A DNA stretch of 36,399 nt, taken from Candidatus Nitrosopumilus sp. Its GTDB lineage: Archaea > Thermoproteota > Nitrososphaeria > Nitrososphaerales > Nitrosopumilaceae. Shown piece by piece: positions 10,713 to 11,093 of the stretch; position 1 is the first letter of the stretch, and each line of letters opens with the position of its first letter. Location: assembly GCA_028343855.1 (NCBI GenBank), contig JAOLZN010000011.1:1-36399 (forward strand), in the 5' to 3' direction. Both the position numbers and the translations under genes were made by a program. Under the pieces are notes generated by a model. The model worked only from the letters and a program-made list of their open reading frames with translations. It was not told the DNA's origin and made no database searches.

Positions 10713-10857
10713 GAAAAATAATTTCTAAAGAAGAACATAACTATGATGAAAGAATTTCAAAAAAGATGTTTATTATTTTGTAATAATCTAAAAATTTATT
10801 TAATTTTTGAGATTAAATGAACAAAATTTTAAGTTAAAAAGAACAGATTTTTTAAAG

Positions 10858-10944
10858 ATTCAATTTTAATATAGTAAAATTTGAATTGAATTGTTTCTAG
10901 TGATACGTGCAAAGATGAGGATCTATATCGTGTCATTAGAGACA
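10858..10944 (+). ncRNA. Candidate structured RNA, two hairpins
   Basis: Intergenic region of 246 bp. Hairpin I: attcaatttta (10858-10868) pairs with taaaatttgaat (10875-10886) around a 6-nt loop, with one bulged base. Hairpin II: 10892-10907 pairs with 10929-10944 over 16 uninterrupted base pairs, 13 Watson-Crick and three G-U, closing a 5/4 internal loop and an inner AGAT-GAGG-ATCT stem-loop. All three wobble pairs are G-U on the plus strand; on the minus strand they become A-C mismatches, so a plus-strand RNA is favoured. A run of nine T at 10974-10982 could end it. No known family recognised; no box C/D or H/ACA layout. Confidence 0.4.
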
Positions 10945-10958
10945 TCATAAAATCAAAT

Positions 10959-11093
10959 TTAGTATTTTGTGGGTTTTTTTTTCTTTTTATTTTCTTGTTG
11001 CTTCTTTTTATAATTTCTAATCCTCTGATTTTGTTCAGCCTCTTTTTGACCTTTACGTTTTCTTGTATCTGGTTTTTTTTTAGAGCCACCCAT
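10959..11093 (-). CDS. Lys-rich 44-residue basic microprotein
   Basis: Short complete frame, ATG 11093 to TAA 10959, 44 residues, more than 40 percent Lys plus Arg: MGGSKKKPDTRKRKGQKEAE, then QNQRIRNYKKKQQENKKKKKPTKY. It looks like the basic unstructured tails of ribosome-associated or nucleic-acid-binding proteins. A TATA-like AATAAATTATG lies 20-30 nt upstream, fitting a leaderless transcript. A longer frame on the same strand (10829-11089) is shifted by one and is judged a shadow. Function unknown; RNA or DNA binding is inferred only from charge. Confidence 0.6.
   Translation of the reverse strand: MGGSKKKPDTRKRKGQKEAEQNQRIRNYKKKQQENKKKKKPTKY

Follow-up and report, generated by a model that had tools for sequence, protein, structure and literature searches.

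Does the 246-bp intergenic gap of a Candidatus Nitrosopumilus sp. contig hold a structured RNA, and if so, from which strand would it be read and what could it do? The window examined here, i.e., the whole stretch of 36,399 nucleotides, had been described in an earlier note as having two neighbouring hairpins in this gap, which were proposed to form a new structured RNA of the plus strand, antisense to both flanking minus-strand genes. Judged from sequence comparison, the second of these hairpins is a real, new and genus-restricted structured RNA family. The features of the locus are given in Table 1.

Table 1. Positions of the hairpin, its putative promoter block and the surrounding features in the window
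Feature	Position	Strand	Basis or remark
ORF, 131 aa	10317-10712	minus	One flank of the gap
Intergenic gap, 246 bp	10713-10958		Flanked on both sides by minus-strand ORFs
Hairpin 1 as first proposed	10858-10890		Weak fold
Putative core promoter block, AT-rich, from TATA-like box to stem start	10860-10891	plus	Between-locus identity
TATA-like box TTTTAATATA	10864-10873	plus	Positions -28 to -19 relative to the stem; ungapped register
RNA hairpin (hairpin 2)	10892-10944	plus	Covariation, covariance model, folding
Arms of hairpin 2	10892-10907 with 10929-10944	plus	16 consecutive pairs, three of them G-U
Innermost pair of the family	10908-10928	plus	U-U in the window copy
Conserved apical sequence GATGAGGATCTA	10914-10925	plus	Alignment of 30 copies, folds
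ORF, 44 aa	10959-11093	minus	Other flank of the gap; Lys-/Arg-rich, MGGSKKKPDTRKRK...
Nine-T run	10974-10982	plus	Inside the 44-aa minus-strand ORF, in its lysine codons

A conserved hairpin of the plus strand

The long stem with its G-U pairs, which had been noticed in the letters alone, is borne out by folding: the plus strand of 10891-10944 folds at -23.6 kcal/mol (z -6.19), a value equalled by none of 200 shuffles, and the minus strand of the same segment at -10.8 kcal/mol (z -3.02). The proposal of two neighbouring RNA hairpins holds for this second one only. Hairpin 1 folds weakly (-4.5 kcal/mol, z -1.76; 12 of 200 shuffles equal it), and its 12 pairs are lost to varying degrees in five relatives, where 7, 5, 10, 9 and 10 of them form; this segment is instead the AT-rich block that we regard as a putative core promoter (see below).

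Covariation was examined in an alignment of 30 copies fitted to the covariance model R1 (described below), in which both arms are free of gaps in nearly all rows. Standard pairs occupy 98.0% of 508 stem cells, and changes on both sides were observed at 9 of the 17 pairs (57 cells). The covariation score was 0.489 compared with 0.293 in shuffles; among 500 shuffles none reached the observed number of paired cells, changed pairs or changed cells or the score, and one reached the number of pair types. When the pairing partners were slid, at most 11 double-change cells were obtained. To count change events rather than inherited cells, we inferred stem changes by parsimony on a tree of the 18 copies that share one type of locus (the ridA-type locus), built from the flanking genes only, with ties resolved toward paired states for real and slid versions alike. 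Standard pairs were retained in 47 of 53 changes, five of which were double, and the slid-partner controls retained pairing in 8-22 of 53-57 changes. Pairing is therefore preserved by compensatory change, as is required of a structured noncoding RNA, and the alignment and covariation check that had been proposed for Nitrosopumilus genomes came out in favour of the hairpin.

The same alignment also settles the strand. Read on the plus strand, the 30 copies contain 94 G-U cells and one A-C cell, which identifies the plus strand as the functional one under selection and extends to the whole family the G-U bias first seen in three pairs of the window copy.

The lower stem is 16-17 bp long across copies, and the length of the inner loop varies by a few nucleotides between groups. 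The sequence of the stem varies while the 12-base apex GATGAGGATCTA is identical in 29 of 30 copies, so that the apex is probably the working part of the RNA. Most predicted folds place in it three pairs (GAU with AUC) that close a GAGG loop, a possible substructure. The one exception to apex identity, L069 (1501-1551), has three bases absent within the apex. In L068 (1501-1551), three bases are absent just after it, and both losses may reflect decaying copies or assembly errors. A reading of the hairpin as a peptide, prompted by the ATG of the apex, was discarded because the frame that follows, inspected by eye, differs between copies and meets an immediate stop in some.

Distribution within and outside the genus

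When 95 genomes of the genus were searched with blastn, the hairpin was detected in eight additional genomes, among them G089 with two copies. Six ungapped copies were used for R1, with a 17-pair stem set by hand and the apex left unpaired, and this model identified 31 loci in the genus at E <= 8.0e-5. A second model, R2, for which 30 distinct copies served as input, again detected these 31 loci, at E <= 2.4e-12; they belong to 30 of the 95 genomes. Below them in the ranking come their own opposite strands, and the best match elsewhere (G054, E 6.8e-4) seems to lie inside a coding sequence. With weak matches included, R2 reached 49 of the 95 genomes at E <= 1; those in G054 (C1:137321) and G008 were rejected as coding-like or unpaired. 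R2 thus gave no convincing copy in 65 of the 95 genomes, so that the RNA is dispensable in many lineages. The stricter filters used in large screens may have missed diverged copies. Some carrier genomes are complete or close to it (one to eight contigs), and 29 of the 30 carrier assemblies have a single copy. In the exception, G089, the two copies (L032:4276-4331 and L033, on C65 and C17) comprise one identical to the window locus and one at the place occupied in G085; they may represent a real duplication or a mixed bin.

Outside the genus, R1 found only matches with E >= 0.286 in 250 genomes of the family, and R2 found only weak ones in samples of 400 order and 398 phylum genomes, samples that overlap with the genus set. 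Three of these weak matches (G180, G609 and G627) were inspected and are not homologs; the others include G260, G290, G416, G137, G154, G158, G160 and G161, with E values of 0.006-0.098. The match in G609, a distant relative within the phylum (L152, G609:C1:769585-769623), is a perfect palindromic hairpin (GTTTCTAGAAACATA...) that resembles the stem without the GATGAGG apex and may be a separate repeat element. When named genomes were scanned by pattern, 22 records were returned, 20 of which were loci already known, under the titles Nitrosopumilus, Nitrosopumilaceae, Nitrososphaerota or marine group I. The other two, from a Nitrospirales MAG (L078) and a cyanobacterial MAG (L089), were considered chance matches with no hairpin fold. 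The viral contigs searched contained no match.

No Rfam 15 family matched the hairpin at the gathering score, either in the window, where only a 5S rRNA and two tRNAs reached that score, all elsewhere, or at 29 related loci. Under relaxed thresholds the best matches had E values of only 5 and 9.9. Open-access literature, to which our search was confined, yielded no small RNA of this kind and no described regulatory small RNA for Nitrosopumilus; passages of one article mention Thaumarchaeota start sites without reference to the hairpin RNA (PMC5069720). Conservation and covariation, together with the lack of an Rfam family, uphold the proposal of a new structured RNA of the plus strand.

Genomic places and the promoter-like block

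The copies occupy seven kinds of neighbourhood, which were sorted by eye from the flanking ORFs: kind A (the window and L042), kind B (L041 and L044), kind C (L043), kind D (L045), kind E (L047, L048 and L009), kind F (L049, L061 and L067) and kind G, the ridA-type locus, where 18 copies lie between a RidA-like gene (so named from reading the sequences by eye) and a 201-aa ORF. Neighbour genes and their orientation vary between these kinds, and the hairpin is independent of them. Running antisense to both flanking genes, as the earlier note had it for the window, is therefore probably wrong as a function of the RNA. Relatives similar in sequence to the 44-aa ORF of the window adjoin other genes in several genomes.

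The presence and absence of the RNA could be compared at the ridA-type locus. We picked by hand, for their completeness, 24 genomes of the genus that lack a copy; the 201-aa protein is encoded in 14 of them. In two of these (L092 and L093) the RidA-like gene stands next to the 201-aa gene with gaps of 55 and 102 bp and no hairpin, whereas the gap is 162-184 bp in the 18 carrier copies. The RNA was thus gained or lost as one block.

TATA-like boxes (TTATAATA, TTTTAATATA, TTGTATATG and similar) are located about 28 nt upstream of the stem in all groups, and a comparable box (GATTATAAAAA) precedes the window's tRNA-Leu gene, equally far from the 5' end of that gene. Identity between loci is near 0.3 beyond position -45, 0.41-0.61 between -35 and the stem, and 0.32-0.34 just past it, with random windows at 0.31-0.32. 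The recurring unit thus appears to consist of promoter and hairpin and to end at the stem. A TATA-like block that stays in register with the hairpin at seven unrelated kinds of locus, and similarity that drops after the stem, are consistent with a small RNA gene that carries a core promoter of its own, as far as sequence can tell. In archaea the spacing from the TATA box sets the transcription start; by this rule the RNA would start close to the stem's base. With regard to the 3' end, no terminator is shared between loci. The nine-T run, which had been suggested as the end of the transcript, sits in sequence that the other loci do not share and so is not a conserved terminator; it may serve as the end in the window.

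Candidate function and comparison with known systems

We consider it probable that the locus is a small plus-strand RNA gene with its own promoter, whose hairpin acts in trans and makes contact through its apex. A TATA-type archaeal core promoter would drive transcription from about the stem base, and the RNA would fold into the hairpin supported by covariation, with the near-invariant ANGAUGAGGAUCUA apex on top. Because the stem is free to change, the apex is fixed and the unit is unchanged at unrelated places, trans action is the most likely mode, in which the stem would be the scaffold and the apex the contact site. The partner is most likely a protein, either within an RNP or as an RNA-binding protein that the hairpin titrates as a decoy, although we hold this choice tentatively. 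A reading in which a genus-specific, relocating mini RNA gene of some 55-60 nt, core promoter plus hairpin, uses its apex to recruit a dedicated RNA-binding protein or the ribosome, is possible at a lower level of confidence.

That the apex acts as a short base-pairing seed to several mRNAs is rather doubtful, and a trans-acting small RNA whose apex GAUGAGGAUC seeds short mRNA matches or binds the 16S anti-Shine-Dalgarno sequence (GAGG with CCUC) we judge unlikely. Such a seed would agree with the apex being the sole near-invariant part, and the 16S tail GGATCACCTCC, present in 8 of 8 genomes examined, can pair with it. However, this pairing (-7.7 kcal/mol) is equalled by 13.9% of 2000 shuffled apices, and the exact 12-base complement of TAGATCCTCATC has no site besides the hairpin itself in its own genome, nor elsewhere in G004, G010 and G012. 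For these reasons protein contact was placed first. The apex complement was matched in 53 of the 95 genomes, mostly by the hairpin itself in carriers, and no exact long mRNA target common to the genomes was found. A different kind of explanation is a miniature mobile element that retains a transcribed hairpin and is selected for spread rather than for the host. Seven kinds of location within a single genus, a gene pair that has the hairpin in some genomes and lacks it in others, and the two copies in the G089 assembly would all be expected of it; one copy in 29 of 30 carrier assemblies and long purifying change that preserves pairs at one place in 18 genomes would not, and we regard it as improbable.

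Readings that tie the hairpin to its neighbours or to duplex DNA are contradicted by those neighbours and by the strand bias. A leader acting in cis on the gene downstream, like a riboswitch or thermometer, could be imagined from L047 and L041, where a same-strand ORF starts 21 and 49 nt past the hairpin, yet similar ORFs start 336 and 246 nt away at L048 and L044, and in the window, in L042 and in the 18 ridA-type copies the gene that follows is encoded by the opposite strand. No class of gene thus recurs close downstream of the copies in the same orientation, and a leader is very improbable. In the window and at the ridA-type locus, the position of the hairpin 12-15 nt past a minus-strand stop codon in most of these copies might likewise point to a 3'-UTR or terminator hairpin of that gene, or else to a DNA palindrome such as a protein site or transposon end. 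At other loci there is no such gene, and with 94 G-U cells to one A-C cell on the plus strand, most of the changes break a minus-strand hairpin or a duplex-DNA palindrome; viral contigs had no match, and only G089 has more than one copy. This last group of readings is scarcely credible.

Ammonia-oxidising archaea of the sea occur in large numbers and have a central role in the nitrogen cycle. For the small RNA gene proposed here, the coordinates and a likely start site can be given, the structure has been tested by covariance, and the apex is short. The gene is also an uncommon example from nature of a unit, promoter plus hairpin, that is constant in form as its genomic address changes. If its apex does recruit a dedicated protein or the ribosome, an uncharacterised RNP system would be present in a group that ranks among the most abundant of marine cells.

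Among known systems, box H/ACA and C/D guide RNAs are likewise short, hairpin-rich archaeal RNAs, and AUGAUGA in the apex of most present copies recalls box C. Guide RNAs are defined either by a box D (CUGA) that pairs with box C or by a 3' ACA together with an internal guide pocket. The 30 aligned copies, inspected by eye, have no conserved CUGA and no internal pocket, the stem being fully paired, and gave no Rfam match at the gathering threshold; on this inspection they belong to neither class. Bacterial decoy RNAs of the CsrB/RsmZ type carry many GGA hairpins that bind CsrA/RsmA, proteins of bacteria. GGA at a hairpin apex and the idea of protein titration are common to both, with many hairpins there and one here. 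Haloferax sRNA132 (PMC6560208) is, like the hairpin RNA, short and intergenic, has its own promoter and is thought to act in trans. Compared with archaeal intergenic small RNAs of this sort, the present RNA consists of one long hairpin whose apex is near-invariant, found only in Nitrosopumilus, and the likeness seen is one of kind, not of sequence or structure.
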